A stretch of 37,170 nt of DNA. It comes from a virus. The notes beneath the pieces were generated by a model. That model saw only the letters and a list, made by a program, of their open reading frames with translations, did no database searches and was not told the DNA's origin. This document shows positions 418-37,170 of the stretch, in pieces; the stretch's first letter is position 1, and every line of letters starts with the position of its first letter. The translations under genes and the position numbers were made by a program. The stretch covers positions 1 to 37,170 of the IMG/VR virus record IMGVR_UViG_3300009137_000103; one strand, written 5' to 3'.

Positions 418-3400
418 TTAGACCTCCGAGATGATCAAAAATGCACCCTGTTCAGCGATCAAATCCAGCCTCGTGGCTGAGCTCGCCAGGTTCCCGCAAA
501 ATCCCCCCTCCGGAATGGCCCCCGTGCGGCCGATTTTGAGATCGCTCGGGAGCAGTGGCGGGGCCTCCAAAAGCCCGCTTTTCACGAGCACGCATTCGAC
601 GGTTTCAACGACCTCATCGACCCAGCGAAATGCCTGGCCATCGTTGATCCAAAACGGCGGGCCGCTCGGCGGATCTGTCGGGCAGCGATCAGCATCATCA
701 TCGCTGACGGCCTCGCGGCGTTGGCCGACTTGTTGGATGGTGCGCACGGCCAAAAATCCAGTGCTGCCAAGATTGACCAGGTCCAGAATTTCCACGGGCA
801 CGGCGAGCCAAAAGTCCGGATCAATCTCCGCGCGATACTCAGCGTCACTGCGCACGATAGCCAGAGCGTAAGGGCACCCGACCAATTGCCCGGTCTTGCT
901 CGCGCCGATCGTGGTCCATGTGGCCCAGTCACTCGGAGAATCTTCGTTTAACGTGCTCGCGACACCGCTCAAGCCATCGCCATAGGCTTTGCAGGTGCCG
1001 ACCGTTGTGCAATTGGTGCCATCCAACTCGGTCAGAGCCACCGCGCGATCGTCACGATAATCGTACGTGCGAAACTTGAAAACCATCGGCAGATCGAGGC
1101 GGACTTTGTCCAGCAGGTTGACCGCTTTAACCAGGCGATTGAACAGCTCCGCGTACATGATCGAATTGGGCAATGGCCCGAAGCCCGATGCATCGATCCG
1201 TTTGGCGAGCGGGAAACATCCAATCTCGCGGCCTTTGAACGCATCGAAACACAAATTCTCGAATCGATAATCGTAGAGGTTGCCCTCGCCGGTCCGGCAG
1301 GTGATGTCTTGTGAAGTGAGCCCGTCCACGAACCCTTCGCACATGGCGCGGAGATAAATCTCGGCTTGCAACATCGAATCGATCACGGCGCGGGTGTCGT
1401 GGGATTCCATCACGTCATTGTTGTCTTCGTAAACTTCGGGGAGCAAATGGCAGAAGAAAAAGTGCGGGTAACAACATCCGAATGGATTATCCGGCAAACC
1501 GTCAACGCCACTCGCAGTGCCACTGTCGCCGGTCTTGACGCTGCATTGTTTGGTGGGATCAGCCTGGTGCAGGACGTATTCCCGGACCGTGTTGTCGTCG
1601 GTGCGATAATCCTCATTGATCTCCGGGTCAGTGGCATACTCGTTGCGGAGCTGCTGCACCTCATCTGCGGACCACGTGCTCGGGTCTTTGTTCACCGCGG
1701 CCGGCGCATCCGGGTGCGATCGGAGCCGCTGCTTTAGCGTCACCTTGATGATCTGGTCAGGCGCCCAGTCGTCCACAACGCAGCTCTCGATCTCATAGGG
1801 CGCCTCATACACGCGGCAGCTCGAATAGAAGTTGTCGCTGCCGTAGCTGCGATTGGCGCCGAGCGTGTAGTTGTATTGGTCCGGCGCTTCCGGCGCGATG
1901 AACTGGAATTGCACGCTCATCGGGTTGCGGATCGGCATGAACGTATCGGCGTCCAGGCCGATGTTGTAGTTGTAGGAAACGTGCCGGCGCAACGCCGGCG
2001 GGGCCGTGCCACTGAAGAAATGGCAGCGCTGACACCAGGTGAAATAATCGCTGTACGCGTCGGGCTTCCAGATTGAGGTTTCGCTGGGATGATACCGTTT
2101 GGCTTCGATGAACAGCACCCATTCGTTGGTGAATCCTTGTTTGAGCGCGGCGTGTCGGATGCCGTCGTGGACGAAGATCTGGGCGTCGCCGGTGGCTTGG
2201 AAGCTGCCTGGCGAGTCGCCACGCCGGACAGGCGGGTCGCCTGTGCTACCGAGGGCGACGAAAGTCTGATCGTTGCCGTAGAGGTTGCCGGCATAGGCGA
2301 TCTGGCCGTTGGTTGTGCGGACGATGTAGGTCTCTCCTTCGATCAGCTCCCCACTGGCCACTGGATCGAGCGGCGGGGCGATGTTCGCAAACATATCGGC
2401 TCGAGTGTTGTTCAGGCCGAAGGCAAACCGTTTGAAGCGTAGGATGCTTTTGCCGCCGTTGACTTCGTAGCAAATCAGGTTCTGCCGGCGAACGATGCGC
2501 GCATGATCGCGGCTGAGGCGCCGTGCGGCGTCATAGACCGGATTGTCATTGACCCATTCGGCGATGTCGCGCACGGCGGCCACGCCCGTCCGATTCACAA
2601 CGCAACCATTGGTGAAGAAATCATCGCTGATCTCCTGCGCTTGCGCGTAATCGCGTCCGCGGCCGTCCACGCCGGCGCCGAAGGCCGTGCCGCCGGCCGT
2701 GGCGGCCAGGCGGCTCAACAAATATGCGTCCCAAGGTTGCGGCTTATATTCGAGCTGCTCGGTAAACTCGACGCTGATCGAGCCAATGCCGCTAAAGCGG
2801 GCTGGAGTCGCCAGGCGCACTGTGAGCGGGGCCGGCGTGGGACAATCCTCCAGCCAAAGCATGGCCTCGGCGGCGCCGTTTGCGTCCGGCTTGAGCCTCA
2901 GAGACCCGATCACCTTTGCGCCATCGACGATTTCGACACGCGCGGGTTCATGCAGATTTTTTGCCTTGGCGAACATCCCGGCCAAGACAAAGCCGGCGCG
3001 ATAGAAAAGCTGCGTCTCGCCGTCGGTAAAACGGGCCACGGTGCCATCGGGCACGAAGCTGCCGGCAAATTCGGCGCGCGGATAAAGCGCGAAGAGAAAG
3101 TCGCCGACCGCCACCCCAAGCGCGGGCGACAGATAATATTGGCGGTTGTAAAAGGCTTCGTTGTCGAAGGCGATCTTCTCGATGTCGAACGTGTCAGGGG
3201 TGCGCTGCATTGGTGTGCCGCGAAAATCCACAGCGAACGCCCACAAGGCGCGGGCCAGGTGATTGCCGTTAGCGTGCGCCAGGCGTCCGACTCCTTCGTA
3301 GGGGCCTTCAATCCAATCGGCCTTGAGGAACATGTCCAGGTTGTAATCGCACTCGCCTGTCCCAGTGCCGACGAACACGTAGTAATTAAATGGCCCTTCC

Positions 3401-4179
3401 CAGATCCCGATTACGTGCCCGCTGGCATGTTCGTCGGTGCCGCACGGACAGGAGCCGGCGTAAGTGATTCTCGGTTTGTCATCGACCGTGCTCAACGTGC
3501 CGTGATGCGCAGGCACTACGACGTCCGATCGGAGGCCACCGAAAAAGATTTCGTAGCTCGGTTGCCCGAGTCCGGTCTCCTCGGTCGAGCCGCAATCGGC
3601 CAGCAGCTCGACTGGCGTCGGGAAAAACCCCCCGTAACTCTTGCCGTGCGGACTGAACCACGGCTGCACGACCCGGAAAAAGTCCTGCGCTGCATCGAGA
3701 GCGGGGGTGCTCTGGGCGAATATGTCCGGGTCGTAAGCGCCGCGCTGTTTTTTGCCCAGTTCCCAAATACTTTCCAATGGCGGCAACTTTGGCGGCGGGA
3801 GCAATTCGACGCGTTGACTGAGCCGCTCATTCTCCGGCTCCATGCCGGGATTGCCGAACACGAAAGCCATCATTGGATTCGCCAGATTCGCGCCTTCAGG
3901 CTCGCCTGGGCCGCTCACCGGCCAGGTCGTACCGGCGTGGTATTCGGGATCCAGATGTTGATAGATATCGAAGAACTCCGCCTGCGGCGGGAAGACGTAT
4001 CCGCCTTCACCCGGATTACGGACCTGGCGCCACAAATTGAACCACCACATGATGACCCGCCAGGGGACCATCTGAAAGGCGCGCAGCCGATCGTTGAACG
4101 CACGCGCCAGCTTGTTGTGCTGGGTGCTGGTGATTGGATCGCCGGGAATGACTTCGAGCGCTTTGGTGAAGGAAAGCAT
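418..4179 (-). CDS. Large tail/baseplate-like protein, 1253 aa
   Basis: The largest gene in the window. The start is taken at MLSFTKALEV, 7 bases after the histidine kinase stop; a longer frame to 4257 would overlap the kinase end. No family is recognised with certainty. The position at the end of the late unit, after tape measure and distal tail genes, and the size suggest a tail tip, baseplate or receptor-binding component. The sequence is rich in aromatic residues, Asp/Asn and cysteines (for example CPCG near residue 250 and clustered Cys near residues 710 and 900), which may mean disulphides or metal sites. A palindromic repeat lies in frame at 2208-2250, coding a short Gly-Asp-Pro-rich stretch. 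It could also be an exported or effector protein carried late. Confidence 0.7.
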   Translation of the reverse strand: MLSFTKALEVIPGDPITSTQHNKLARAFNDRLRAFQMVPWRVIMWWFNLWRQVRNPGEGGYVFPPQAEFFDIYQHLDPEYHAGTTWPVSGPGEPEGANLANPMMAFVFGNPGMEPENERLSQRVELLPPPKLPPLESIWELGKKQRGAYDPDIFAQSTPALDAAQDFFRVVQPWFSPHGKSYGGFFPTPVELLADCGSTEETGLGQPSYEIFFGGLRSDVVVPAHHGTLSTVDDKPRITYAGSCPCGTDEHASGHVIGIWEGPFNYYVFVGTGTGECDYNLDMFLKADWIEGPYEGVGRLAHANGNHLARALWAFAVDFRGTPMQRTPDTFDIEKIAFDNEAFYNRQYYLSPALGVAVGDFLFALYPRAEFAGSFVPDGTVARFTDGETQLFYRAGFVLAGMFAKAKNLHEPARVEIVDGAKVIGSLRLKPDANGAAEAMLWLEDCPTPAPLTVRLATPARFSGIGSISVEFTEQLEYKPQPWDAYLLSRLAATAGGTAFGAGVDGRGRDYAQAQEISDDFFTNGCVVNRTGVAAVRDIAEWVNDNPVYDAARRLSRDHARIVRRQNLICYEVNGGKSILRFKRFAFGLNNTRADMFANIAPPLDPVASGELIEGETYIVRTTNGQIAYAGNLYGNDQTFVALGSTGDPPVRRGDSPGSFQATGDAQIFVHDGIRHAALKQGFTNEWVLFIEAKRYHPSETSIWKPDAYSDYFTWCQRCHFFSGTAPPALRRHVSYNYNIGLDADTFMPIRNPMSVQFQFIAPEAPDQYNYTLGANRSYGSDNFYSSCRVYEAPYEIESCVVDDWAPDQIIKVTLKQRLRSHPDAPAAVNKDPSTWSADEVQQLRNEYATDPEINEDYRTDDNTVREYVLHQADPTKQCSVKTGDSGTASGVDGLPDNPFGCCYPHFFFCHLLPEVYEDNNDVMESHDTRAVIDSMLQAEIYLRAMCEGFVDGLTSQDITCRTGEGNLYDYRFENLCFDAFKGREIGCFPLAKRIDASGFGPLPNSIMYAELFNRLVKAVNLLDKVRLDLPMVFKFRTYDYRDDRAVALTELDGTNCTTVGTCKAYGDGLSGVASTLNEDSPSDWATWTTIGASKTGQLVGCPYALAIVRSDAEYRAEIDPDFWLAVPVEILDLVNLGSTGFLAVRTIQQVGQRREAVSDDDADRCPTDPPSGPPFWINDGQAFRWVDEVVETVECVLVKSGLLEAPPLLPSDLKIGRTGAIPEGGFCGNLASSATRLDLIAEQGAFLIISEV
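2208..2250. repeat. R5 palindromic repeat inside the 1253-aa gene
   Basis: A GC-rich repeat of the form GCGAGTCGCC ... GGCGGGTCGCC.G.GCTACC. On the minus strand it encodes GSTGDPPVRRGDSP, nearly the same peptide as the copy in the portal gene (GSAGDPPAVAGDSP), so both copies are inserted in the same orientation and frame. Confidence 0.8.
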
Positions 4180-4186
4180 TTTGCGC

Positions 4187-5686
4187 TCAGGCCCCGCATA
4201 CTTGTTGCAGCTTGCTGAGGAGCTGCTCGGCGCTGAAAGGTTTGCCCAGGGCAGCATCGGGTTTGGCCGCCGCCACTTCCTCGGCGTTGCTGCCGGCGCC
4301 AGTAATGCAGAGGATTTTCACCTCCGGCTCGATCGCGCGGAGCTGCCCGATTAACGCCACGCCGCTCATACCCGGCATCATCAGATCTGTGACGACGACG
4401 GTGATCGCATCGGCATGATCCCGATACAATGCCAACGCGACTGAGGCGCTACGCGCGGCCAGGACATGATAGCCGTAGCTTTCCAGCAACGTCCTGGTCA
4501 GCTCGCGCATGCCGTCCTCATCATCGACCAGGAGCAATGTCCGGCCATTGCCATGCGGCGGGATCGGCGCGGCCTTTGCCTCGTGCGTCCCGATGACGCG
4601 TGTCGGCGCCGGCAACAGCACGCTGAATTTGGTGCCAATGCCTGGGATGGTGACCAGGTCGATGTAGCCATTGTGCCCCTTGACGATTTTCAGGACATTC
4701 GCCAGACCCAGGCCGGTGCCGCTCTTTTTGGTCGTGAAGAACGGCTCGAAGATTCGCGCGGCAATCTCCGGCCTCATGCCTGGTCCGTTGTCGGCCACGC
4801 TGATGTGGACGTAGCGGCCGGAGACAATCTCACCGTTAGACAAGCGATGATCGCGCAGCTCGATCGCGTCCGCGATGATATCGATCAGGGGCTTGGCGGG
4901 CGCGGGCCCCATGGCAAGCATCGCATCACGCGCGTTGATACACAGATTCAGGATGACCTGCTGCAACTGGGTCGAGTTGCCGGAAATGTCCGGCAGATTG
5001 GCCTTGATACTGTGCCGAAGCTCGATGCTTTTACCGATCGTATGCCGAAGGAAATCCAGCAGTTGCCCCAACAGTTGGCCGAGCGCAATTGGCCGCTGGA
5101 TGCCGTTTGTGCCGCGCACGAATTCGAGGAGCTGCTCCAGCATTTCCGCTTGCCGTTGGAAGGATTGTTCGATCGCGTCCAGTAGCCGCCCCTGTTCTTC
5201 GGATAAGCCCGGCCGTAGCATCGAGACTGCCAGCGTGCCGGGGCCGACGGCGTTGTTCAGATCGTGCACGATGCCGGAGGCGAGCGCGCCGATATCTTCC
5301 ATCCGCTGGGCGCGGAGCAATTGCAGTTTGTCCTGGCGCTCCCGATGCGCGCGTTGCACCGCAATGGGCAGCAGTTCCCAATCCGCTTTTCCGATGTAAT
5401 CAGTGGCGCCCGCCTTGATCACCTCGACGGCTTTGGTGACGGTGATTGTGCCGGAGAAGACGATGATCGGCGTTTGCGGCGCGCGTTCCAGGGCCAGCTT
5501 GAGGGCTTCATCGCCGTTGAGCTGGGGCAAACTGAAATCGAGCATGATAATGTCCCAGGGCATGCTGAGCGCGTTCCGGAATTGATCCCGTGATGATGCG
5601 CGTTCTACGGTCGCCAGCTCGCGCAGCGCCCGCATCACGAGGAGGGAATCGTCGTCGTTGTCTTCGAGCAGTAGGATTTTTAGCAT
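4187..5686 (-). CDS. Soluble hybrid histidine kinase, REC-HisKA-HATPase-REC
   Basis: A 499-aa protein. Residues 1-110 are a receiver domain with acidic pocket (LLLEDNDDD) and phospho-acceptor D50 in MLDFSLP. Residues 125-200 hold the dimerisation/phosphoacceptor domain with H141 in GIVHDLNN. Residues 240-360 are the HATPase domain with N box ([11 protein letters not shown]), G1 (DNGPGM), F box (FEPFFTTK) and G2 (GTGLGL). Residues 380-499 are a second receiver with DDE at 388-390, D434 in VTDLMMP and K482 in GKPF. All catalytic positions are present and no membrane segment is seen, so it should be an active cytoplasmic kinase. The start at MLKILLLED avoids an upstream palindromic repeat. It ends 7 bases before the next late gene, so it is probably co-transcribed with the tail genes. 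Confidence 0.93.
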
Positions 5687-8995: not shown

Positions 8996-9067
8996 TTTAC
9001 GCGAATTGTCGCGACTGGCTCCCGCGAATTTCCCGATTCGCGTTCCTTAGCGTCAATTCGCGTAAAA
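8996..9067. repeat. R1 intergenic palindromic repeat, copy a
   Basis: A roughly 72-bp element starting TTTACGCGAATTGTCGCG and ending TTCGCGTAAA, with an internal GATTCGCGTTCCTTAGCG block. The termini are inverted repeats. It fills the gap between two late genes. Confidence 0.85.
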
Positions 9068-12135: not shown

Positions 12136-13008
12136 TCATGGTATGATGGCGCGGTTCATGTCCGATTGGTATTGTTGAACGCCGTGATAATAAAATGTTT
12201 GTCGGGTTGGCGGAATGGCTGTGCCAAAGGTGTAATAACTGAGAGTCCTGCTCGTGGGACTATTCAACGAACCCGATGCATTGATCCCGTGAACGAACTG
12301 GGAATTGCCGTCGATGGCTGGTGTGGTCCCAACGTCCGTGCTACTACTCAATATGGATGAGCCATTCTTGTAGAGTGTGCGGCTTGATTGCCCGTTCTTC
12401 ACTGCAAGATAAAATCCGGTGCGCGGCGATGCATCGGCAGCACTGATTTGAGAAGCAGCGTCGTCATAATACATGTAACAGTTGCCATCTATCCAACCCA
12501 TGAGGAAATAGTTGACGAATCCGCCTGCTGCCGTGCTACCAATTATTCCGCCAACCTCCGCCTTGTTCGTCCGCACGTAAACACCCTGGTGAATATTGGT
12601 TGCCGTGCAATAGGCGCTTGACGCAACACCAGTGCCGAGGAACTTCGTAAGACCATCCCCAGTTAGCCCCGTCGTCTCACTGTAATCCGCCGCCACGAAA
12701 GCTGTGAACGTATCCGTCGTGTTTCCCAATGCGGAGCCACCAGGATACTTATTGATGAGCGGGCAAACGAGTGCGTTAGTCGTATTGCCAGCGTACGCCC
12801 CTGCTCTCGCAATTCGCTGGCGCAAATCATGTGTCTTGGTAAAGATGACAAGGCGCGTGGCTGCGTTATAGGAATGTGCGGATACCGTACCGCCGTTTGC
12901 CGGGACACGTATCTTGGCCCAGTTATAGGCGTCTGAATCCCAGGCGTTGAAAAATCCGAATGCTTGTGCGTTCAGATGGCAGACGAGTAGGAGAGCGAAG
13001 GATTTCAT
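12136..13008 (-). CDS. Fibre-like exported protein, LamG-type beta fold likely
   Basis: A 290-aa protein with an ATGA overlap with the upstream 712-aa gene. The N-terminus (MKSFALLLVCHLNAQA) looks like a Sec signal peptide with cleavage after AQA. The rest is a Ser/Thr/Asn/Gly/Tyr-rich beta protein with an arrangement like concanavalin/LamG folds (FTAFVAADYS ... FYLAVKNGQSS). Paired with the long repeat protein upstream, it could be the receptor-binding tip of a fibre. Base composition is visibly lower in GC than its neighbours, suggesting recent exchange. A signal peptide is unusual for a phage fibre. Confidence 0.6.
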   Translation of the reverse strand: MKSFALLLVCHLNAQAFGFFNAWDSDAYNWAKIRVPANGGTVSAHSYNAATRLVIFTKTHDLRQRIARAGAYAGNTTNALVCPLINKYPGGSALGNTTDTFTAFVAADYSETTGLTGDGLTKFLGTGVASSAYCTATNIHQGVYVRTNKAEVGGIIGSTAAGGFVNYFLMGWIDGNCYMYYDDAASQISAADASPRTGFYLAVKNGQSSRTLYKNGSSILSSSTDVGTTPAIDGNSQFVHGINASGSLNSPTSRTLSYYTFGTAIPPTRQTFYYHGVQQYQSDMNRAIIP

Positions 13009-15143
13009 TTGTGCAGATTGCCAGCCATCGTACCGTGAACGAGTGAGTTGGTGAAGGCGCTCGTGATGAACTCGAAGTAGGAGACAGCGTTCGCGTTAGT
13101 ATCCGCTATGGGCATATCTCCACCCGCCCAGCTAAAGGCTGCGTTGGTGAAAGTCAACGCCCATGTTCCGGTAGAATCCTGCTGCACTTCCAAATGAACC
13201 TTCTTCGGATAGGCTGGAATATTAGATGGTGCTGGCATTTGCGCTGTGTTGGTCAGGCTGAGCTTGAACCATGCATCACGCGTGTCGCCGAGCGAGAGGT
13301 CCATTGCAGTCAAATTAGTCCCACTGTAGGTAACTGTATTCCACGAGAGTGTTGAGTGGTTAGCCTGCATGTTCGTGCTTGCTCCGATGGCCCAGACGAT
13401 GTCGGCAGTATCCTTGAAGTTCGGATTTGAGACGCTGGTGCCATTTTGATAAACACTCGTCCCGCCACCAGCCGCAGCCGCATAAGATGGATCGGCCCCA
13501 CTGCCACCAGACGTCAGAACGTATCCAGATGTGCCTGGTGTCAAAGCAGCCCAACCACTTGCTCCGCGATATAGAATTGAACCGCGAGTACTTCCGATCC
13601 AGTCAAGAATCTGCGTTCCAGTTACTTCCTCCGGATCGCCTGAGCCTGCCGTGTTACGCCCGATGGCCCTAGCCGTGGCGCTAATGTTCTGCATCTTCGC
13701 ATAAGTGACCGCGTCGTTAGCGATGGTGGCCGCTGTACCGGATGTCGTGACATCTCCCGTCAACGCCTGCACGTTGGCGGTCCAGTTTGACGTGCCGTTG
13801 AAGGCCCACTTCAACGTCGCCGTGTCCTGGATGTTCGCCTCCGGCGCGGTGTTCGTCGCGTTGATGTGGAGGGCGGGAACATTCTTGCCAGCGACCTTGA
13901 CCGTCGTCGCGTTAATCACGGTCGTGTTGATGTTCGTGATCGTCGCCTGATCGATGTTCGTGGTCCACGTCGGCACGCCGTTGGAGATCACCATGATGAA
14001 GCCCTCCGGGCCTTTGGGCAGCCGCGTGAAGTTGGTGCCGTCGTACCAGAATAGATCGCCCGCCACGCCGGTGATGTTGCTCAGATCCTTGACCAGTGTC
14101 GGCAGCCGGTTCGACGAGACCGTCCCGCTCGTCAGGTCTGAGGCGCTGCGCGTGGCCAGGTCAGCCAGGCTGCTGCCGGTCTTGTCGATCTTGGACCACC
14201 CGATCGCCGCCGAGCTGCTCACCTGCGCGTCTGCGACTTGAGCATAGCTCTGGTCTCCGCGCAGGAAGGTAGTGCTGTTGGCCGTGCCGCTGCCGAGCCT
14301 TGCCGTGGCCACAGTGCCACTGGACAGGTCCGAAGCGCTGCGCGTGGCCAGGTCAGCCAGGCTGCTGCCGGTCTTGTCGATCTTCGACCAGCCGATTGCC
14401 GCGCCGGAGGCCACCTGCGCGTCGGCCACCTGCTTGTAGGTCTGATCGCCGCTCAGGAAAGTCGTGCTGTTGGCCGTGCCGCTGCCGAGCCGCGCCGTCG
14501 CCATTGTGCCGCTGGTGACCTTAGAAGCGCTGAGTGCCATTACATTGGCCGACGCGTTTGTGCCGGACAGGCCGAATGCAATCTCAGACGTGTCCTGGAA
14601 ATTCAAAATCGGCGTGTTGGTTCCGTTGATGCTTGCCGAGCTGACATTGTATCCGTTACGAGTGAGTGAGGACGAAAAAGCGCCCCCGACAGCAGTAATC
14701 AACCCGATGCCTGAAAACGTCGCATTGCCAGTCGCGGCCTCCAGCGAGATTGTTGTTCCAAATCCGCCACTATGCAGATCAAGGCTCTTTGTCGAGTTGT
14801 TCCATTGAAGGCCAATGTCAAAGCCGATCGTGTTTGTGCCGGTTGAGAAAGGGATTCGATTGGCGAAGTAAGCCGCGCTTTGGCCGAAGTGGATTTGGCC
14901 TCCAGACTTGACGATGCCGCGACCGACGCCTATCGCGTCGCTGAGTGCGGCGGAGTTCGACGGCCAGAAATTCAGCGGCGCGACAACCTGGCCGTTTGTA
15001 TCGGCACTGACGCTGCGGATCTGGGCAACGGCGCTGCAGGCGGTCTGCAGGAGGAAGAAACTGAACAGGAGGGAACGGAGAAAACCGAGGGTGCGCTTCT
15101 CTGCCTCTGTTCTCTCTGTTTGCTCCTGTTGAATTAGGTTCAT
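13005..15143 (-). CDS. Long repeat-containing fibre-like protein, 712 aa
   Basis: It starts with an ATGA overlap with the 145-aa gene. The first about 40 residues (after MNLIQQEQTERTEAEKR) include a hydrophobic segment LRSLLFSFFLLQTACSAVAQ, a signal-peptide-like region with possible cleavage after VAQ, and are partly coded by an R2 repeat. The body is Ser/Thr/Gly/Asn-rich with two near-identical 64-aa repeats (SGTVATARLGSGTANSTTF type) and phrases like TGTQILDWIGSTRGSILYRG, common in tail-fibre or collar proteins. The C-terminal 120 residues look like a beta-sandwich head. Function inferred: fibre shaft. Confidence 0.7.
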   Translation of the reverse strand: MNLIQQEQTERTEAEKRTLGFLRSLLFSFFLLQTACSAVAQIRSVSADTNGQVVAPLNFWPSNSAALSDAIGVGRGIVKSGGQIHFGQSAAYFANRIPFSTGTNTIGFDIGLQWNNSTKSLDLHSGGFGTTISLEAATGNATFSGIGLITAVGGAFSSSLTRNGYNVSSASINGTNTPILNFQDTSEIAFGLSGTNASANVMALSASKVTSGTMATARLGSGTANSTTFLSGDQTYKQVADAQVASGAAIGWSKIDKTGSSLADLATRSASDLSSGTVATARLGSGTANSTTFLRGDQSYAQVADAQVSSSAAIGWSKIDKTGSSLADLATRSASDLTSGTVSSNRLPTLVKDLSNITGVAGDLFWYDGTNFTRLPKGPEGFIMVISNGVPTWTTNIDQATITNINTTVINATTVKVAGKNVPALHINATNTAPEANIQDTATLKWAFNGTSNWTANVQALTGDVTTSGTAATIANDAVTYAKMQNISATARAIGRNTAGSGDPEEVTGTQILDWIGSTRGSILYRGASGWAALTPGTSGYVLTSGGSGADPSYAAAAGGGTSVYQNGTSVSNPNFKDTADIVWAIGASTNMQANHSTLSWNTVTYSGTNLTAMDLSLGDTRDAWFKLSLTNTAQMPAPSNIPAYPKKVHLEVQQDSTGTWALTFTNAAFSWAGGDMPIADTNANAVSYFEFITSAFTNSLVHGTMAGNLHK
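14143..14526. repeat. Two tandem 192-bp coding repeats
   Basis: Two adjacent near-identical 192-bp units within the 712-aa fibre gene (64 codons each; about 14143-14334 and 14335-14526). Such units lengthen fibre shafts and can change in copy number by recombination. Confidence 0.85.
15061..15132. repeat. R2 palindromic repeat, copy b, in the 5' end of a gene
   Basis: An R2 element beginning GAACAGGAGGGAACGGAG and ending CTCCTGTTGAA. It covers codons about 5-28 of the 712-aa protein and encodes the hydrophobic core of its predicted signal peptide. Confidence 0.8.
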
Positions 15144-15586: not shown

Positions 15587-15682
15587 CCCCGACACCGATG
15601 TCGGGGAGTTGGAGCGCGGCTCTGTGAGCCGCAGCGTTGTGGCTCGGTGGCGATGATGCTGCGGGTCACAGACCCGCGCTCC
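15587..15682. repeat. R3 and R4 repeats between late genes
   Basis: An R3 palindrome (15587-15606) is followed by a full R4 element (15611-15682). R4 starts GGAGCGCGGCTCTGTGAGCC and ends with its near complement GGGTCACAGACCCGCGCTCC. Confidence 0.85.
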
Positions 15683-16140: not shown

Positions 16141-16208
16141 GGAGCGCGGCTCTGTGAGCCGCAGCATGTCGGCGAGCGCGCTTGCTGCGGGTCACAGACC
16201 CGCGCTCC
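16141..16208. repeat. R4 palindromic repeat
   Basis: A full R4 element of 68 bp, nearly the same as the copy at 15611. It lies in the spacer between the gp36-like gene and the exported 158-aa gene. Confidence 0.85.
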
Positions 16209-19288: not shown

Positions 19289-20899
19289 TCATATCAGAGT
19301 TGTTTTCTTGCGCAGTTCATCGACCACAGCGCCGGTCATGGCGTCGGCCATCATTTCCTGGAGCGCTTGCGCGTACTCGGGCCGGGCGCGGACCTGGTCG
19401 GCCAAATCCGGCACGTCTTTGAGGAGTTGCTGCAGCTCGCGTTGGAGTTGGGCGGGATCATCGATCTGCAGCAGGGTATCCAGACGCTGCAGGATGGGTT
19501 GCAGACTGGTTGCGCGGGCGCGGAAAACTTTTTGGAGCGCGGGTCTGCTCACAGAGCCGCGCTCCGCTCGGTTGCGTAGTCCCAGTGTTGCAGGCGAGTC
19601 GCCTGCAACGGCGGGCGGGTCGCCCGCGCTACCCAAGAGGATCTGCGGCTTCAGCTCGAGGGTGTAACCGGTCTTCTCGGATAATTCCGCAGCATCGCGT
19701 TGATAGCCGGCCTGGGCAAGCGTGAGGGTGTTGTCCGCTTCCTCTTTCACGTCCGCTTCGTCGCGCGGACGCAGATGGAAGTACGCCAGCGCCGGTTCGC
19801 CCGAATGCTCGCGCGCCAGGATATCGGCGTCGAATTGGGCCTGGAACACTTCGTTGATCTCGGCGGCTTCGCCTTCGGCGATGTCGTCGAACGTGTCTTC
19901 GTGCGCGCCGCCGGCCAATGTGCCGCTGCCGCTCTCAGTGAGCATCGTCAGCTTGCCGCCTGTGCCGGCCAGCACCAGCTCTTCGTCCTGGTAGCGGATA
20001 TGGTCGCGGAACGGATTGATGCCGCGCGGTTGATCGTTGGGCTTGTAATCGCTGCCGGCCGGCAACGCGCCGCTGCCGCCGCTGGCGATACGGGAAGCGG
20101 CATCTTCGTAATCTTTTTCTTTGCCTTGCTGGATGTTGCCGGGCATCACGACCACGCCGCTGGGGATCCCATAGATCTCGATGAAGGCGTCCCAGTCTTT
20201 TTGGGAGAGGTTCTTGCGCAGGTAACAGAACAGTCCGATCTCGTCGATGGGCATGTCGCACTCGCGAATGATGAAGCCGGCCGGGTCGATGACCTGGCCT
20301 TTAAGCACGTCGAATGTGACCTGGCGACTGTCCTTGTTGTACGCCCATGGCCCGTAAAGGCCGTCGCGGACCCAGGTCCATTGATCGAGCGGCTCGAGGT
20401 GCATCACGTCGCCGTCCGGGCTGCGCTGCTTTTGGAGGTGGCTGAAGCCGCGGAACTCGGCCAGGGCAAGAAACGCGATCGCGCCACGGAGGTTGTCCAG
20501 GGCATCGTAGGCGGCGCGGAGGGTTTGTTTCTGGGCATCGGCCTGGGCCTGGGTGGCGCCGGGGGGCAGCTCGGCCACGGTCTTGATGTCCCAATCCAGC
20601 TTTTGCAGGGCGGCCCGGCGCCGGATGATCAGGGCGCGGTGGGTCGCGTTGCGTTTCTCGACAAGGCGGAAAAGCCATTGGAGATCAGCGAATTCACCGC
20701 GTTGGCCGGCTTCCAGGAGGCTCACCGAGCGGGCGACGGTCAGGCCGCGGAGCGGGTTGTACCATTCGCGCCACCGGTTTGTTCCCCGGACCAGCCGCTC
20801 CATATCCACTGCGGTGCCGGGCAAAGCGGCCTGGACGCGGTTCAGGAGCGGCCAGGCGGCGCTGACCAGGGCGGTGCGGAGGTTGCGGAAAAGGGTCAT
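19289..20899 (-). CDS. Portal protein, DUF935 (Mu gp29) type
   Basis: A 536-aa protein. The order NRWREWYNPLRGLT (residue 40), RNATHRALIIRRRAAL (residue 84), LDWDIK and GVVVMPGNIQQG (residue 250) followed by INPFRDHIRYQDEELVLAGTGG is characteristic of DUF935 portal proteins, which form the dodecameric DNA gateway and dock terminase. It is coupled by ATGA to the zinc-ribbon gene upstream. R5 and R4 repeats (19534-19635) are inserted in frame near residue 425-455, in the C-terminal region after the core, adding about 35 residues. Confidence 0.85.
   Translation of the reverse strand: MTLFRNLRTALVSAAWPLLNRVQAALPGTAVDMERLVRGTNRWREWYNPLRGLTVARSVSLLEAGQRGEFADLQWLFRLVEKRNATHRALIIRRRAALQKLDWDIKTVAELPPGATQAQADAQKQTLRAAYDALDNLRGAIAFLALAEFRGFSHLQKQRSPDGDVMHLEPLDQWTWVRDGLYGPWAYNKDSRQVTFDVLKGQVIDPAGFIIRECDMPIDEIGLFCYLRKNLSQKDWDAFIEIYGIPSGVVVMPGNIQQGKEKDYEDAASRIASGGSGALPAGSDYKPNDQPRGINPFRDHIRYQDEELVLAGTGGKLTMLTESGSGTLAGGAHEDTFDDIAEGEAAEINEVFQAQFDADILAREHSGEPALAYFHLRPRDEADVKEEADNTLTLAQAGYQRDAAELSEKTGYTLELKPQILLGSAGDPPAVAGDSPATLGLRNRAERGSVSRPALQKVFRARATSLQPILQRLDTLLQIDDPAQLQRELQQLLKDVPDLADQVRARPEYAQALQEMMADAMTGAVVDELRKKTTLI
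19534..19635. repeat. R4 and R5 repeats inserted in frame in portal gene
   Basis: An R4 half element (19534-19565) and an R5 element (19588-19635) lie side by side. On the minus strand they encode GSAGDPPAVAGDSPATL and RAERGSVSRPAL, with no stop and no frameshift. Confidence 0.85.
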
Positions 20900-21336
20900 A
20901 AAGGTGCTTCCGGCATCTTGCCGGAAGAAGAATTGAGTGCAGCCCCGACATCCGATGTCGGGGCAGCACCTTGGGGGTGCGGGCTCAAGGGCGGGGGGCT
21001 ATGGTCATCCGTCCTTAGCGTAAGAATGCCTGTAAAGGCCGTGCCGCGCGCAAATTTAGCCCTTCCCGTCGAGCCTGTGACCAAGGAATCGGATATGGGC
21101 GGGTGGTCCTTTTTCCAGCGCCTGGTCCGGCACAAGTTCCCGCAAAATGCGGCTCCCGGAGTTTTTGGAATGAATCGATGGCCGCATTCGACGCAGTTCC
21201 TTGGGCCTGGGCGGAACTGGCGCGGCCGTCTCAGGGTCCATGCTTGGACCCGGCAATCATCCGAGCAAAATCGTTTTGTCGCGCGCTTCGGCGTGAAGGC
21301 CGTTCCGCAGACCGGGCATGGGATCGGTTGCTTCAT
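20896..21336 (-). CDS. Double zinc-ribbon protein between TerL and portal
   Basis: A 146-aa protein. Two Cys4 units are clear: CPVCGTAF...RFCSDDC (residues 7-28) and CVECGHRF...AAFCGNLC (residues 48-69), each CxxC-x12-CxxxC, typical of small zinc-binding proteins. The C-terminal 60 residues are Pro/Ser-rich and run through an R3 repeat in frame (APTSDVGAAL). It overlaps TerL (ATGA) and portal (ATGA), so it belongs to the packaging operon and may bind DNA or aid terminase. Function not known. Confidence 0.65.
   Translation of the reverse strand: MKQPIPCPVCGTAFTPKRATKRFCSDDCRVQAWTLRRPRQFRPGPRNCVECGHRFIPKTPGAAFCGNLCRTRRWKKDHPPISDSLVTGSTGRAKFARGTAFTGILTLRTDDHSPPPLSPHPQGAAPTSDVGAALNSSSGKMPEAPL
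20943..20963. repeat. R3 palindrome inside zinc-ribbon gene
   Basis: A 21-bp R3 palindrome with the CAGCACCTTG tail, inserted in frame in the C-terminal part of the zinc-ribbon gene. Confidence 0.85.
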
Positions 21337-22829
21337 CCCGCCAAACTCCTTTCACGGCGCTCGGCGAGCACCTGGTTGCGATGGCTGTCCGGCACGATGA
21401 TCCGGCCGATCGCCGACGGGAAACTGCCGGCATGAACGCATAGCGCCAGGCCGTTGGTCCGATCGGCGTGGCCATCCTCGGATTGCGGCGCGCGATAGGT
21501 GACGCTGCCCGCCGCGGTAACGACCCGCTGCATGCTGTGCAGGTCTTCACGCACCAGGCGGTTGATCGGGATCCGAAGCTTGCGGCTCTCGAAGGCCATC
21601 TTGAGTTTGGGGAAAATCTGCAGCTTGAATTGGTTGGTCATCACGCACAGCTCGATCTTGCCGAACAGGTCCGCATCCGGTTTCCATTCGCCGAATTCCT
21701 TGACCAGGTAATCGCCCATACCGATGCCCGGCCCGGTATAATCGAGCGCAACACGCCGCGCTTTGCGGATGCGCGGGCGGAGGTTGTCGATCTGGTCCGG
21801 GGTGCTCATGTTTTGCAGCTCGAGCACTTCGCGTGTGGCCTGCACGTCGCCGATCATTTCGGCAGCCCAGGAGACGGTGAGGTTTTTCTTGCGGCCGTAA
21901 TCGATGCCCAGGTCAACCGGGAAAGGCGTGGTCGATTCCCAAAATTCGGCTGGCGCGGCCGTGTGCGCCTCCGGACTTTCGCACAGGGCAATCAGGTCAT
22001 AGGGCAACAGAACCGAAGCGGCATCGAGGAATTGACATTCGAATTCCTGCGCCCAGCCGTCGGGATCATTGAGCGCTTCCTTGAGCTCCTCGATATTGAC
22101 GGGCAAGCCTTCCTGCACGGCGCGATAAATATCCACGTAATGACAGCTCCATTTGGCTTTGGGCTGTTGATAGTTCTTGCTCCAGAGTTCATGGAACTTG
22201 TTGCCGATGCCGTTCGGGGTCGAGATGAGCCGGACCCGTTTGACCCCGCCGCGGAGCGGGTTGGTGATGCTGGGCAGGATCGCGCGCCAGGTGGCATCCG
22301 GATTTTCGAAGAAGGCAAATTCGGTGAGCAAAATGTTAGCGGAGAAACCGCGCACGGTGTCGGGCTTGCCGGGCACGGCAATGACGCGCGAACCGTGCGG
22401 GAAAATGATGGTGCCGGATTTGAGCAGGGCCTCGGCGCTCTTGGTTTCGCGTTCTTCGAGCACATCGGCAATGGTCAGTTTGTAGGCTTCAGCCCAGTCT
22501 TTCCATTTGTTGAGTGACTCGAGGGCCTGGCGTTCGGAGGGGGCGCCGATGAGCCAATCGACTTTGTTGTTGTCCAGCTCGTGCTGGACGCAATCGCGGA
22601 TGCCTTCTTCGCCGCTGGAGAAGTCTTTGCCGACCTGGCGGCTCATGAGGCCGATCTTCCAGCGGGCATCGTCATCGGCCCAGGAGCGCTGGTAGGGCAG
22701 AAGCAGACCCCGACATCCGATGATGTCGGGGCGCTCCGGAGCGGGACCGGCGGGGCCGGCATTGGGGCTGTGCGCATCAGCCTTTCTGCCGGTCCCACCG
22801 TCAGTGTCGCTTGTTGAAAATGTGTCCAT
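21333..22829 (-). CDS. Terminase large subunit (TerL), Mu gp28-like
   Basis: A 498-aa protein. The ATG overlaps the last base of the small subunit stop (TAATG). The ATPase core begins near LLPYQRSWADDD (residue 43), with a Walker A-like SRQVGKD (residues 63-69), a Walker B-like ILLTEFAFF, and a coupling segment RVRLISTPNG. The nuclease part has VDLGIDYGRKKN and a late Asp-rich block. It packages DNA by headful-type translocation and cleavage. The N-terminal 42 residues are low complexity and contain an R3 repeat in frame. Confidence 0.85.
   Translation of the reverse strand: MDTFSTSDTDGGTGRKADAHSPNAGPAGPAPERPDIIGCRGLLLPYQRSWADDDARWKIGLMSRQVGKDFSSGEEGIRDCVQHELDNNKVDWLIGAPSERQALESLNKWKDWAEAYKLTIADVLEERETKSAEALLKSGTIIFPHGSRVIAVPGKPDTVRGFSANILLTEFAFFENPDATWRAILPSITNPLRGGVKRVRLISTPNGIGNKFHELWSKNYQQPKAKWSCHYVDIYRAVQEGLPVNIEELKEALNDPDGWAQEFECQFLDAASVLLPYDLIALCESPEAHTAAPAEFWESTTPFPVDLGIDYGRKKNLTVSWAAEMIGDVQATREVLELQNMSTPDQIDNLRPRIRKARRVALDYTGPGIGMGDYLVKEFGEWKPDADLFGKIELCVMTNQFKLQIFPKLKMAFESRKLRIPINRLVREDLHSMQRVVTAAGSVTYRAPQSEDGHADRTNGLALCVHAGSFPSAIGRIIVPDSHRNQVLAERRERSLAG
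22708..22731. repeat. R3 palindrome inside TerL N-terminus
   Basis: A 24-bp R3 copy with an extra GAT in the centre. It encodes RPDIIGCRG just before the conserved ATPase core of TerL. Confidence 0.85.
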
Positions 22830-23374
22830 TAGCTCATGCCGAAGATGGCGCGCAGGCGATGTTGTTTCTCTTCGGGCGAAAGTGCCTTGTCGCTGATGGT
22901 CACCTCGGCTTCCTCGGCCTGCCTGGCTTTCTGTTCCAGTATCGCCACACGGCGTTCTTCCAGGTGCCGGTCGGCGCGTTGCTCCTGCACTTTCAGATAG
23001 GTCATCACCGGGGTCATGGCTTTGGTGGCGACCTTGAGCAGTTCCGGGTTGGCTGTGGCCTGCAGGCTCAGTTGCATGATCAAGACCCGATGCAGTTTGA
23101 TCAGCGTCTCCACTTCCGGCGGCGCGTCCTTGGCGAATTGTTTCTCGACCCGTTTCACGGCCTGAGCGCCCGTAGCGATCTTCTCCAGGACGCGGTCCTG
23201 AAGGCGTTGTTGCTGGCGTTTCTCCCACCAGTCCGACAGCAGCGAGGGCGAGACTGAGAGCGAGTAAAGATTCTGCAAGCGGGCGCGGGCATCGTCCAGG
23301 GTGAGGTTGTCGGCGAACCAGCGCTCCAGCTCCGCGCTGTACGGATCGAGCTTGGATTTTTTCTGTTTGCGCAT
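22829..23374 (-). CDS. Terminase small subunit, DUF3486 (Mu gp27)-like
   Basis: A 181-aa highly charged helical protein starting MRKQKKSKLDPYSAELERWF. The helix-turn-helix-like start (LTLDDARARLQNLYSLSVSPSLLSDWW) and long coiled coil follow the DUF3486 layout, where Mu gp27 recognises DNA for packaging. It lies directly before TerL with a one-base overlap. An R1 repeat separates it from the gene upstream. Confidence 0.75.
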   Translation of the reverse strand: MRKQKKSKLDPYSAELERWFADNLTLDDARARLQNLYSLSVSPSLLSDWWEKRQQQRLQDRVLEKIATGAQAVKRVEKQFAKDAPPEVETLIKLHRVLIMQLSLQATANPELLKVATKAMTPVMTYLKVQEQRADRHLEERRVAILEQKARQAEEAEVTISDKALSPEEKQHRLRAIFGMS

Positions 23375-23383
23375 TCACTGAGG

Positions 23384-23457: not shown

Positions 23458-23715
23458 TCACAGTTGCTTGGCTTTGTGCTGGCCCTTGGGCGTCAGGGTC
23501 CAGCTCTGGTCTTTGGTCATTGAATCTTCGGTGCCGTGGATCCATCCGTTCAGCGATTGCTCGCGGATCGCCGCGTTGATGTCCCCTTCGGGCGGCGGAC
23601 TCGGTTGCATGGCGGCGCGCACGGCCTGGAGCAACGCTGCGTCCGGCAGCGGCACGCCATCGGCCGCTTCCAACGCGCGCAGGATGAATTGTTTGATCTC
23701 GGATTTGCGGCTCAT
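23458..23715 (-). CDS. Small protein with winged-helix-like layout, 85 aa
   Basis: An 85-aa protein: MSRKSEIKQFILRALEAADG then a second helix (DAALLQAVRAAM) and a C-terminal beta hairpin (DQSWTLTPKGQHKA) like a winged-helix wing. It lies between the receiver gene and terminase small subunit, where Mu has gp26. It may bind DNA. It is bounded by two R1 repeats. No family is certain. Confidence 0.55.
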   Translation of the reverse strand: MSRKSEIKQFILRALEAADGVPLPDAALLQAVRAAMQPSPPPEGDINAAIREQSLNGWIHGTEDSMTKDQSWTLTPKGQHKAKQL

Positions 23716-23810: not shown

Positions 23811-24263
23811 TCATGGGGTGTGATGGTTTGAGCGGCTCATTTGGGCGGTGTCATGGGCGATCCGGGCGGCTTGCTTCAGGTTCAGCAGACTTTGCTTGTG
23901 CAATACTGCCCGGCTGATGGCGCCGAACATTTGTTCGCCATCCCGATCGTCGCGGCCTTTGACCAGGTACCCGGAGGCGCCTTCAAGGATATGCTGGGCC
24001 ACGGCGCCGGGTCCGTCCCGTCCGGTGATGATCACGATCGAGGCCGCGCGCGTGATGGTGGAAAAGGTCTTGAGTGTCTCGCTCCACTTCGAGTCCGGCA
24101 AAGATAGATCCAGCAGGATGCACCAGTAACTTTTGCTGAGGGCTTCGTTGATCCCTTCGGCGAGCGTGCCGACTGCGTCCATGATACAGAACGGCGCCAG
24201 GCGCTCCTGCAATGCCTCGCGGTAAAGCGGGTCGTCTTCGATCAGTAAAACGCGTTCTCTCAT
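23811..24263 (-). CDS. Stand-alone response-regulator receiver protein
   Basis: A 150-aa single receiver domain. It has the acidic pair in LLIEDDPLY, phospho-acceptor D52 in LLDLSLPDS, a Thr in IITGRDG and the Lys in GYLVKGRD. About 30 residues of helical tail with no output domain follow. The start MRERVLLIED overlaps the upstream gene by ATGA, so it belongs to the late unit. It may take phosphate from the hybrid kinase at 4187-5686 or from host kinases. Such single-domain receivers act by binding partners. The fit is very good for the family and unexpected for a phage. Confidence 0.9.
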   Translation of the reverse strand: MRERVLLIEDDPLYREALQERLAPFCIMDAVGTLAEGINEALSKSYWCILLDLSLPDSKWSETLKTFSTITRAASIVIITGRDGPGAVAQHILEGASGYLVKGRDDRDGEQMFGAISRAVLHKQSLLNLKQAARIAHDTAQMSRSNHHTP

Positions 24264-24616
24264 TTGCGCCGGCTCATCTCGATGCGGGTCAAATGCACGA
24301 GCACTTCGCTGATGCGGGTATGGAGTTTCTCCGCCCGCGCCTCGGCGGCGGCATTGGTAATTTCCTTGTCGTGCGCGAGCTCGCGCCGAACCTCGACAAC
24401 CGATTCGCGCAGCTCGCCGGCCAGCCCATCGACTTCCTCGCGCACCTCCTTCCATTCGCTGCGGGTGACGTAATCGCCTTTGACCTGGTACGTGTCCCGT
24501 GGCGGCGGGTGTTCTTTGAACCGATCGAGCAGGCGCATGACCTGGTTGATGCCCATGACGACCCCGACCAGGCATCCGAGCCAGCCAGCCAATTCCAGTG
24601 GTGTGGGTGTGGGCAT
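24260..24616 (-). CDS. Membrane-anchored coiled-coil protein, Mu gp25/DUF2730-like
   Basis: A 118-aa protein with one N-terminal membrane segment (LAGWLGCLVGVVMGINQVM, residues 9-27) and then a long charged helix (residues 50-118). The layout fits DUF2730 proteins such as Mu gp25 and also resembles inner-membrane spanins. It is followed by the receiver gene with ATGA overlap. I favour the gp25-like call by position. Confidence 0.6.
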   Translation of the reverse strand: MPTPTPLELAGWLGCLVGVVMGINQVMRLLDRFKEHPPPRDTYQVKGDYVTRSEWKEVREEVDGLAGELRESVVEVRRELAHDKEITNAAAEARAEKLHTRISEVLVHLTRIEMSRRK

Positions 24617-24726: not shown

Positions 24727-24921
24727 TCATTCGATTTGCCATTCCGGGCCTTTGAACTGGCCATCGGCGCGGGTCTTCAACGATTGATAACGGCTCAAGA
24801 CGCGCTTTTGTTCCTCGATGCTGATCTCACCCCTGAGCCTGAGCCGCTCCACTTCCGGGATGAGCGCTTCGACCAGGGCGAGGCCGGCGTTAAGGGCCTG
24901 GATTATTATTTGCGGGGCCAT
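24727..24921 (-). CDS. Small helical late protein, 64 aa
   Basis: The start is taken at MAPQIIIQALNAGLALVEAL, 32 bases inside the end of the lipoprotein gene. It is a mostly helical protein with a charged C-terminus (ISIEEQKRVLSRYQSLKTRA). No membrane segment or known family. Its place in the lysis/packaging region and its typical codon pattern support a real gene. Confidence 0.55.
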   Translation of the reverse strand: MAPQIIIQALNAGLALVEALIPEVERLRLRGEISIEEQKRVLSRYQSLKTRADGQFKGPEWQIE

Positions 24922-25387
24922 ATTTTGTGAGGTGCGCGGTGGCTTCAGCGAGCGCCTGGCGTATGACGCGCAGCGCGTCATTCAACGCGGTGCGGTTGTC
25001 CGGAGTCGGGCTGGCGGCATACGCCTCGCGCAGGCGCGTGGCGGCATCGGTCCATTCTTCGGCGTGGCGCCGGATGTTGTCGGCGGCTTGTCTGATCTCC
25101 GGGATCGCGGCCAGTGCTGCGCGATTGTTCCGTTCCCAGCTCACGAACACTTTGAACAGGTCGTAACCGGTGACGATGGATTGGTCCGCTTCGAACAGGA
25201 GCTTGGCTGCGGTGGGATCTGTGGTGAGCCCTTTGTCGCCGAGGTACGGGCTGGGATTGTCCGGCGTGCCTTTGCTCAACGTGCCGCAACTGGTGATGCA
25301 CAGGAGCACACTGAGGGAACAGAGGTGGAACCATCGTCGGTTAACTCCGGTTCCTCCGCTTCCTCCTGTTAAAAAAGTTGGGCTCAT
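24890..25387 (-). CDS. Late lipoprotein, outer-membrane spanin candidate
   Basis: A 165-aa protein. The N-terminus has a hydrophobic stretch LCSLSVLLCITSC ending in a lipobox (ITSC, Cys about residue 34). After a Pro/Gly linker the mature part is helical (about residues 65-165). It follows the holin-like gene with an ATGA overlap, so it could be an o-spanin or a lysis-related lipoprotein, though it is longer than most o-spanins. Its signal peptide is encoded by an R2 palindromic repeat (25300-25370). Confidence 0.6.
   Translation of the reverse strand: MSPTFLTGGSGGTGVNRRWFHLCSLSVLLCITSCGTLSKGTPDNPSPYLGDKGLTTDPTAAKLLFEADQSIVTGYDLFKVFVSWERNNRAALAAIPEIRQAADNIRRHAEEWTDAATRLREAYAASPTPDNRTALNDALRVIRQALAEATAHLTKYGPANNNPGP
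25300..25370. repeat. R2 palindromic repeat, copy c, coding a signal peptide
   Basis: An R2 element (CAGGAGCACACTGAGGGAAC ... TTCCTCCTGTTA) that lies within codons about 6-30 of the lipoprotein gene and encodes the hydrophobic core of its signal peptide. Confidence 0.75.
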
Positions 25388-25632
25388 TTTGTTTGATCGG
25401 TTGCAGGCAGTGTGGCTTGGATGGCTTCAATGTGTTCGTGCACGTGTTCCAGTGCTTTGTCGGTCTTCGTCACGCCCATGCGCAGGAAGGTGAGCCCGAG
25501 GAAACCGAACATGCCCATGATTTCTTCACTGGGGTTTTTGCCGGTGAATTGGCAGAGGGCCAGGTAACCGATCGCGGCGCCGGCGACCAGGTAGGTCTTT
25601 TTGCCGGAGAAGAATTGGAGCACTTCGTTCAT
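25384..25632 (-). CDS. Holin-like small membrane protein, 82 aa
   Basis: An 82-aa protein with two predicted membrane segments (TYLVAGAAIGYLALCQF, residues 13-29, and IMGMFGFLGLTFLRMG, residues 38-53) and a hydrophilic, His/Glu/Lys-rich tail, as in class II holins. It is the first gene of the tightly packed late unit. No endolysin gene is recognised nearby. Function inferred from topology and position. Confidence 0.6.
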   Translation of the reverse strand: MNEVLQFFSGKKTYLVAGAAIGYLALCQFTGKNPSEEIMGMFGFLGLTFLRMGVTKTDKALEHVHEHIEAIQATLPATDQTK

Positions 25633-31783: not shown

Positions 31784-32350
31784 ATGACCATTGAGCGACC
31801 AATTCAACGCACTCTGGATCTCCGCGCGGCGGATGGGTCGCGCCTGGCGTTCCTCAGGCCGATGCTCGGGATCGAGTCTGTCAAAGCGGTCCTCGATGTG
31901 AGCGAGGATGAGGTGCTCGAGTTGCTTGCTGGTGGGGCGCTGCGCTGGGGGTGGGATCTAAAGGCCGAAGGTGGCGGGGCGCGCAGTTTCGTCCGGGTCT
32001 GGAGCAGATCGGTGACGTGTTACTTGCATCCGGGACATCAGCCGGCTGAGCCGGAGGAGATCGAGGATGTGATCGGGCTGCTGCTGTCCGCGGAGCGCGG
32101 CTCCGTGAGCCGCAGCGCGGTGGCTGGCGACATTGCTGCGGGTCACAGACCCGCGCTCCAATCAGGCAGTGTCCCTGCAATAGCGCTGCAACGAATTTTC
32201 AACGCCAGTTCCGGGCATGTGCTCAATCTGATCCGGGCCGATGCCCTCGAGTTGACCAAAAGTAGTCAATGGCGACGCGGGCCGGGCGGATCGCCGGAGG
32301 TGACCAGGGCAAGCGTGGTGGAGCTGCTCAAGGCGAGGAGGATTTTATGA
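31784..32350 (+). CDS. Early protein with in-frame R4 repeat, 188 aa
   Basis: MTIERPIQRTLDLRAADGSR start. The N-terminal 90 residues are helical (VKAVLDVSEDEVLELLAGG). Residues about 104-126 (ERGSVSRSAVAG and AAGHRPAL) are encoded by an R4 repeat. The end (LTKSSQWRRGPG then TRASVVELLKARRIL) looks DNA-binding. The N-terminal block has a helix-turn-helix-like pattern. Function unknown, possibly a regulator. Confidence 0.55.
   Translation: MTIERPIQRTLDLRAADGSRLAFLRPMLGIESVKAVLDVSEDEVLELLAGGALRWGWDLKAEGGGARSFVRVWSRSVTCYLHPGHQPAEPEEIEDVIGLLLSAERGSVSRSAVAGDIAAGHRPALQSGSVPAIALQRIFNASSGHVLNLIRADALELTKSSQWRRGPGGSPEVTRASVVELLKARRIL
32092..32159. repeat. R4 palindromic repeat inside early gene
   Basis: A full R4 element of 68 bp without stop or frameshift in the 188-aa early gene. 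Confidence 0.85.
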
Positions 32351-36802: not shown

Positions 36803-36996
36803 AAACTCCCGCCGTCAAACCCTCGGTGCGACTGCTCAGTGAAGCGGCGCGATACGAAATCCTCGCGCAGCAGGCTGCCCTTCGTGCGGTCCTCGGCGAT
36901 CGCGAGAACCGCGCGTCAGAAGAATGCCTGGCGCACGATCACATGATTCGCTCGGAGACTTACAAGGCGGCCGCGAGCCTGGTCGATCTTTTCTGA
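36799..36996 (+). CDS. Small protein, first copy of a tail-to-tail pair, 65 aa
   Basis: It starts MKTPAVKPSVRLLSEA. The core has LGDRENRASEECL and HMIRSETYKAAASLVDL. The same core is coded in the opposite strand by the second copy. No ribosome site is obvious. A family of unknown small proteins. Confidence 0.5.
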   Translation: MKTPAVKPSVRLLSEAARYEILAQQAALRAVLGDRENRASEECLAHDHMIRSETYKAAASLVDLF

Positions 36997-37170
36997 AGGA
37001 AAGATCTACCAGGCTCGCGGCTGCCTTCTTAGTTTCCGAGCGAATCATGTGCTCGTTCCCCAGGCATGCTTCTGACGTGCGGTTCTCGCGATCGCCTAGG
37101 TCCGCACGACTGGCACCCTGCTGCGCGCGCGTGTCGTATCGCGCCGCTCGACTCGTCACCTGCGCCGAGG
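36821..37170. repeat. Large diverged inverted repeat, about 171-bp arms
   Basis: Arm 1 is 36821-36991 and arm 2 is 37000-37170, with an 8-base loop. By hand I count about 28 mismatches and no gaps in 171 positions. Both arms hold the same small coding frame. The repeat reaches the edge of the window and may go on. Confidence 0.85.
36836..37159 (-). CDS. Diverged second copy, tail-to-tail, start beyond or at GTG
   Basis: The frame encodes RAARYDTRAQQGASRA, then LGDRENRTSEACL and HMIRSETKKAAASLVDL, and runs on into the first copy's antisense before stopping at 36836. The real start may be beyond 37170. Most differences from the first copy are amino-acid changing, so at least one copy may be decaying. 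Confidence 0.4.
   Translation of the reverse strand: MTSRAARYDTRAQQGASRADLGDRENRTSEACLGNEHMIRSETKKAAASLVDLSFRKDRPGSRPPCKSPSESCDRAPGILLTRGSRDRRGPHEGQPAARGFRIAPLH

Follow-up and report, generated by a model that had tools for sequence, protein, structure and literature searches.

A virus that most likely infects Verrucomicrobiota has a late gene for a small receiver protein and, in its tail region, one for a hybrid histidine kinase. Do these two proteins work together, and if so, on what? Both proteins are intact, and the pair is found at the same two places in three phages. We conclude that these viruses probably have a signalling system of their own.

The sequence that we analyzed (the window) is a virus record of 37,170 bases. 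It comes from a Mu-like phage and encodes a Mu-type portal, a Mu I-like protease, and a TniB-like ATPase; a 657-aa gene occupies the position of the transposase. Relatives of the portal are located in the genomes of Verrucomicrobiota, which is why we consider that phylum to be the most likely source of hosts. Three genes serve as landmarks:

418 to 4179, minus strand: large protein of the tail region, encoded just downstream of the kinase (74% identity with the protein from a sister phage)
19289 to 20899, minus strand: Mu-type portal (PF06074, from Pfam), the phage marker in our comparisons
21333 to 23378, minus strand: ORF for the large subunit of the terminase (PF03237)

We considered the receiver first:

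23811 to 24263, minus strand: stand-alone receiver (REC) of 150 amino acids, with a complete pocket and a long α5 helix

This ORF encodes an intact single-domain receiver that stands alone and has no output domain. (The plus-strand reading is interrupted by stops.) Residues 5-107 match Response_reg (PF00072) with E = 3e-10 and 40.6 bits, as compared to a cut-off of 30.2 bits. No other Pfam domain was found, and the rest of the protein is a long helix. The active site includes the acidic pair E9/D10, the phosphoacceptor D52, T80, and K102, so the first-pass annotation was right to describe an intact phosphorylation pocket and the lack of an output domain. T80 is replaced by serine in the sister phage, while E9, D10, D52, and K102 are invariant in an alignment of three phage orthologues in which most other positions vary. 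An AlphaFold2 model has the (βα)5 fold (mean pLDDT of 84.7), with α5 spanning residues 109-145, and response regulators from PDB match the model at E of about 1e-8. Between the window and the sister phage, dN/dS for the receiver is about 0.20, which is a rough ratio, as dS is near saturation. Given the Pfam score, this conservation, and the fold of the model, we can exclude a chance similarity. In cultured phages, we found no close relative of the receiver, just a single match at 28% identity. We also considered whether a C-terminal motif, AARIAHDT, which resembles the H-box of the kinase (GIVHDLNN), is the remnant of a phosphoacceptor site, and rejected this idea because the histidine is replaced in a more distant phage (G444, described below).

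The receiver gene lies among several small genes, including those of a TM/lipoprotein cassette:

23458 to 23715, minus strand: conserved 85-aa gene between the receiver and the terminase (homologues in the sister phage, G444, and G005/G006)
24260 to 24616, minus strand: 118-aa TM/coiled-coil (TM-CC) protein, with a TM segment at the N-terminus (9-27) and then a helical, coiled-coil-like stretch
24727 to 24981, minus strand: 84-aa small cassette protein (homologues in the sister phage, G450, and G455)
24890 to 25387, minus strand: lipoprotein-like protein of 165 amino acids, whose lipobox cysteine is invariant in four phages
25384 to 25632, minus strand: small hydrophobic protein of 82 amino acids, holin-like by size and position only

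The TM-CC gene, which lies in what we take to be the position of Mu gp25, overlaps the receiver gene by ATGA, as had been noted from the sequence (the junction is CGC AAA TGA over ATG AGA). This overlap is not conserved: in the sister phage there is a gap of about 14 nt instead. In the sister phage, the receiver and the 85-aa gene are also separated by an additional gene of 170 aa (L014:6533-7045), which is missing from the window. The lipoprotein-like protein is a candidate o-spanin-type protein. The 82-aa protein falls below the hydropathy cut-off, so its assignment as a holin is weak. We did not recognize an endolysin among the window's ORFs that were scanned, and a search for the lipoprotein cassette across the phylum Verrucomicrobiota, which had no positive control, found nothing.

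The record also contains several repeats. Seven intergenic copies of a sequence near CGCGAATTNACGCTAAGGAACGCGAA are at 9037, 10601, 11264, 23424, 24632, 25648, and 30612, while none are expected from shuffled sequences. Two copies of this type flank the unit of TM-CC and receiver genes, and the other loci that we fetched have no exact copy. A second dispersed family (GGAGCGCGGCTCTGTGAGCCGCAGC ... GTCACAGACCCGCGCTCC) is found on both sides of the genome, at 15611-15682, 16141-16208, and 32092-32159. At 36821-37170, a 174-nt inverted repeat (arms 83% complementary and 2 nt apart) finishes exactly at the end of the record; it is possibly a fold-back artefact of assembly or a terminal structure. 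Within a 712-aa fibre-like gene (13005-15143), there is a tandem duplication of 192 nt (83%) at 14119-14502.

The other member of the pair is the kinase:

4187 to 5686, minus strand: hybrid histidine kinase, REC-HisKA-HATPase_c-REC, about 499 amino acids (the ORF is open from 5800, and 5686 is the best start)
5384 to 5677, minus strand: N-terminal receiver of the kinase
5102 to 5287, minus strand: HisKA dimerisation and phosphoacceptor domain, with the H-box
4604 to 4978, minus strand: HATPase_c catalytic domain (from Pfam)
4208 to 4534, minus strand: C-terminal receiver of the kinase

Matches to PF00512, PF02518, and PF00072 are all above the Pfam cut-offs, and the H, N, G1, F, and G2 motifs can be read in alignments. 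In other words, this protein has HisKA with the H-box histidine, HATPase_c, and an attached receiver with its aspartate. Pfam did not recognize any sensor or TM domain in it. (A structure model of the kinase is of moderate confidence, 76.5 with a pTM of 0.39, and we do not build any argument on it.) Matches to the kinase in cultured phages are partial only, at 25-31% identity. About 7 nt separate the end of the kinase gene from the next gene of the tail region. As the first-pass annotation had stated, the kinase is 18 kb from the receiver in the same unit: the two genes are on the same strand, and the late genes between them all run in one direction.

For the kinase, dN/dS between the window and the sister phage is 0.28, and for the capsid, portal, and cassette genes it is 0.08-0.23; these ratios are rough, as dS is near saturation. 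Even so, dN/dS is well below 1 for both the kinase and the receiver, which excludes neutral decay. Together with the intact active sites, the low ratios argue that both proteins are likely to be functional.

Are the two genes found together in related phages, as the first-pass annotation had proposed to check? They are in three phages, but neither gene is always accompanied by the other. The sister phage (G001) encodes a receiver that is 62% identical to the window's and has the same neighbours, and a kinase that is 51% identical and is flanked by the same tail genes. (Records G002 and G003 represent parts of the sister phage and are identical over the shared stretch.) The third phage with the pair, G444 (36 kb), is much more distant: its capsid shares just 22% identity with that of the window. 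For the kinase, the identity between G444 and the window is 49%, and for the separate receiver of G444 (175 amino acids) it is 34%. The gene order in G444 is a TM/coiled-coil gene, a gene similar to the 85-aa gene, the receiver, a 198-aa gene, and a large terminase-like ORF. In both G001 and G444, the receiver lies in the interval from the TM-CC gene to the terminase, with the kinase in the tail region; across the phages with the pair, the two genes are 16-20 kb apart. Since the window and G001 are sisters, the independent support for co-occurrence comes mainly from G444. G444 was recovered by a search with the kinase, and its receiver played no part in that search, which makes this second case unbiased.

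Among 46 other virus records with related portals, 17 of which are 30 kb or longer, none has a receiver domain. Just one of the 46 has a match to HATPase, which is at the end of the contig and looks unrelated. In the prophage regions of Verrucomicrobiota genomes that we sampled, we saw neither REC nor the kinase.

Other phages have just one of the partners. At least five have a kinase and no separate receiver: kinases from the same clade of N-terminal receivers are found in G007, G448, and G449; related kinases are found in G445-G447; and G450 has a shorter REC-kinase alone. (Some of these kinase-only records are short.) Conversely, G454-456 encode an in-frame fusion of a receiver with a TM/coiled-coil segment, 281 amino acids long, and no second receiver. 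The fused receiver matches the profile of the receiver family at 99.5% (hhalign), and profile comparison found no kinase in the record for G455. We did not detect any homology of the 118-aa protein to the TM portion of the fusion in G455, so this arrangement is only analogous. Overall, the linkage of kinase and receiver is strong in one arrangement, and the coupling is not obligate.

To see where the signalling genes lie relative to potential lysis genes, we scanned for lipoboxes. In G444, G448, G449, G450, G455, and G007, a signalling gene is 0.8-2.4 kb from a lipoprotein-like ORF. As compared to random positions, P is 0.057-0.095 for each record, or about 0.002 for the six records combined. 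The scan is crude, though conservative, since it overlooked the lipoprotein of the window itself; G007 was scanned only in part. The kinase adjoins lipoprotein genes in G448, G449, and the L218 record, some of which have a TM gene on the other side. This proximity suggests a link between signalling and the lysis cassette, if, as we presume, the TM/lipoprotein cassettes function in lysis. Judging from its genomic position and from the G455 fusion, the receiver perhaps affects the timing of lysis.

Several of these loci have other unusual features. In G450, which is not Mu-like, the REC-kinase (G450:23381-24484, or L275:9381-10484) has 367 amino acids and lacks the C-terminal receiver; its gene overlaps a 119-aa gene by ATGA and adjoins a homologue of the window's lipoprotein. 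In G455, a 167-aa protein whose N-terminus is similar to LuxR-type helix-turn-helix domains (G455:44224-44727, or L283:8464-8967) is encoded two genes before the TM-receiver fusion and could be its output partner. Also, phage REC-HK-REC kinases are repeatedly found just after fibre-like genes (L217:9079-11539, L221, L232, and L218), so proximity to the tail module recurs beside the link to lipoproteins.

Where did the two proteins come from? In trees of receiver domains, which have just 125-126 columns and many unresolved forks, the N-terminal receivers of the phage kinases group with those of two cellular REC-HK-REC proteins (support of 100/99). The cellular kinases are up to 38% identical to the phage kinase over its full length, and Verrucomicrobiota genomes contain many kinases of this group. 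In several loci, a sensor kinase and a small Rcp1-like receiver are encoded next to them. We considered whether the phage receiver derives from these small receivers, but it is on a different branch. Instead, it falls among receivers that precede kinases and joins the receiver from G444 with mixed support (98/57). It is only about 30% identical to cellular receivers, the nearest of which are the receivers of REC-HK hybrids.

How might the pair work? The first-pass annotation proposed a phage-coded phosphorelay. Both proteins are real, and their genes are co-inherited in three phages, but scanning the window's ORFs against Pfam did not identify an HPt domain, so direct transfer from kinase to receiver fits better than a full phosphorelay. 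(HPt domains diverge quickly, and a host HPt is possible.) Our preferred explanation, to which we assign a probability of just under one half, is a split two-component module in which the kinase feeds a receiver that acts at a membrane protein, so that late events follow the state of the host. The sensor-less kinase would autophosphorylate on the histidine of the H-box, gated by its N-terminal receiver, which is probably fed by a sensor kinase of the host. Sensing of the host's state is plausible because no sensor domain was recognized in the kinase, and the genes of its closest cellular relatives lie next to one for a sensor kinase. The kinase would then hand the phosphate to D52 of the stand-alone receiver, though the kinase's C-terminal receiver might compete for it. 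Once phosphorylated, the stand-alone receiver would act by protein contact, most likely on the TM/coiled-coil protein from the overlapping gene, and late membrane events (lysis, or its delay) would thereby follow host state. The domain content, the intact active sites, the purifying selection, and the joint inheritance at two fixed positions in three phages are all observed, and gene position supports a link with the TM/lipoprotein cassette; the phosphotransfer, the host input, and the lysis target are steps that we infer. In a narrower form, a dedicated two-component system of Verrucomicrobiota phages would set the timing of lysis, with the kinase tapping a host sensor pathway and the receiver gating the membrane protein of the lysis cassette; we view this form as rather doubtful.

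The main rival to the split module is that the kinase and the receiver feed separately into two-component pathways of the host, and have no dedicated phosphotransfer with each other. The receiver would be a phosphate sink or decoy, and the kinase would be an extra kinase or phosphatase. This could account for the phages with just one of the two genes, and it fits with the closest relatives of the kinase being cellular, with adjoining sensor kinase and receiver genes, and with the many such kinases in Verrucomicrobiota genomes. On the other hand, the pair is at the same slots in three phages while receivers are absent from the 46 other portal relatives, and a decoy would not need to stay beside the TM/coiled-coil gene. 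Interference with the host is a serious competitor, yet we consider it unlikely.

Alternatively, the two genes might be unlinked cargo from the host (morons) that are co-inherited by descent and have no joint function. Such kinases are widespread in the phylum, and the recent shared descent of the window and G001 explains one of the two co-occurrences. But the positions are conserved in the far-diverged G444, and the low dN/dS and intact pockets are not what we would expect from cargo, which makes this explanation improbable. Finally, the receiver is immediately upstream of the terminase genes and might be an accessory for structure or packaging that has the receiver fold but is not phosphorylated, but this is very hard to reconcile with E9, D10, D52, and K102 being invariant among otherwise variable orthologues.

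Phages read the state of their hosts via repressors and peptide signals. If the split module is correct, then this pair would be a direct wire from the host's two-component signalling to late phage functions. More broadly, the kinase and the receiver are concrete proteins for asking if a phage makes decisions of its own by His-Asp phosphotransfer.

Among known systems, the window's receiver is most similar in type to single-domain response regulators such as CheY, Spo0F, and DivK, which also have one domain, an intact aspartate pocket, and no output domain. Like them, it is expected to work through protein contact; unlike them, it is encoded by a phage, in a late operon, with translational coupling to a TM/coiled-coil gene, and its α5 is extended to residue 145. 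The phage kinases share their domain order and the clade of their N-terminal receiver with the cellular REC-HK-REC kinases of Verrucomicrobiota, but the phage has the hybrid kinase without the sensor kinase, and its stand-alone receiver is from another branch. Among phages, phiCDHM1 encodes a histidine kinase, AgrC, that has been proposed to act in signalling within the host (PMC3901668). That is a membrane kinase for quorum sensing, encoded with AgrB and AgrD, and no response regulator was identified in phiCDHM1. Pelagiphages also encode histidine kinases, which adjoin curli genes (PMC9599517); in the parts of that report that we draw on, these are tied to a curli secretion cluster, and no paired stand-alone receiver is described. 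BFVD includes annotated phage receivers that are small and have the receiver fold (for example, A0A6C0R1B8 from Alteromonas phage vB_AmeM_PT11-V22 and A0A6J5RMP2 from an uncultured phage), but they are just 13-16% identical to the window's receiver. Among the open-access papers that we searched, we found no description of a phage kinase and stand-alone receiver in conserved positions. Phage-coded parts of two-component systems are already known; here, they are organised as a conserved split pair.
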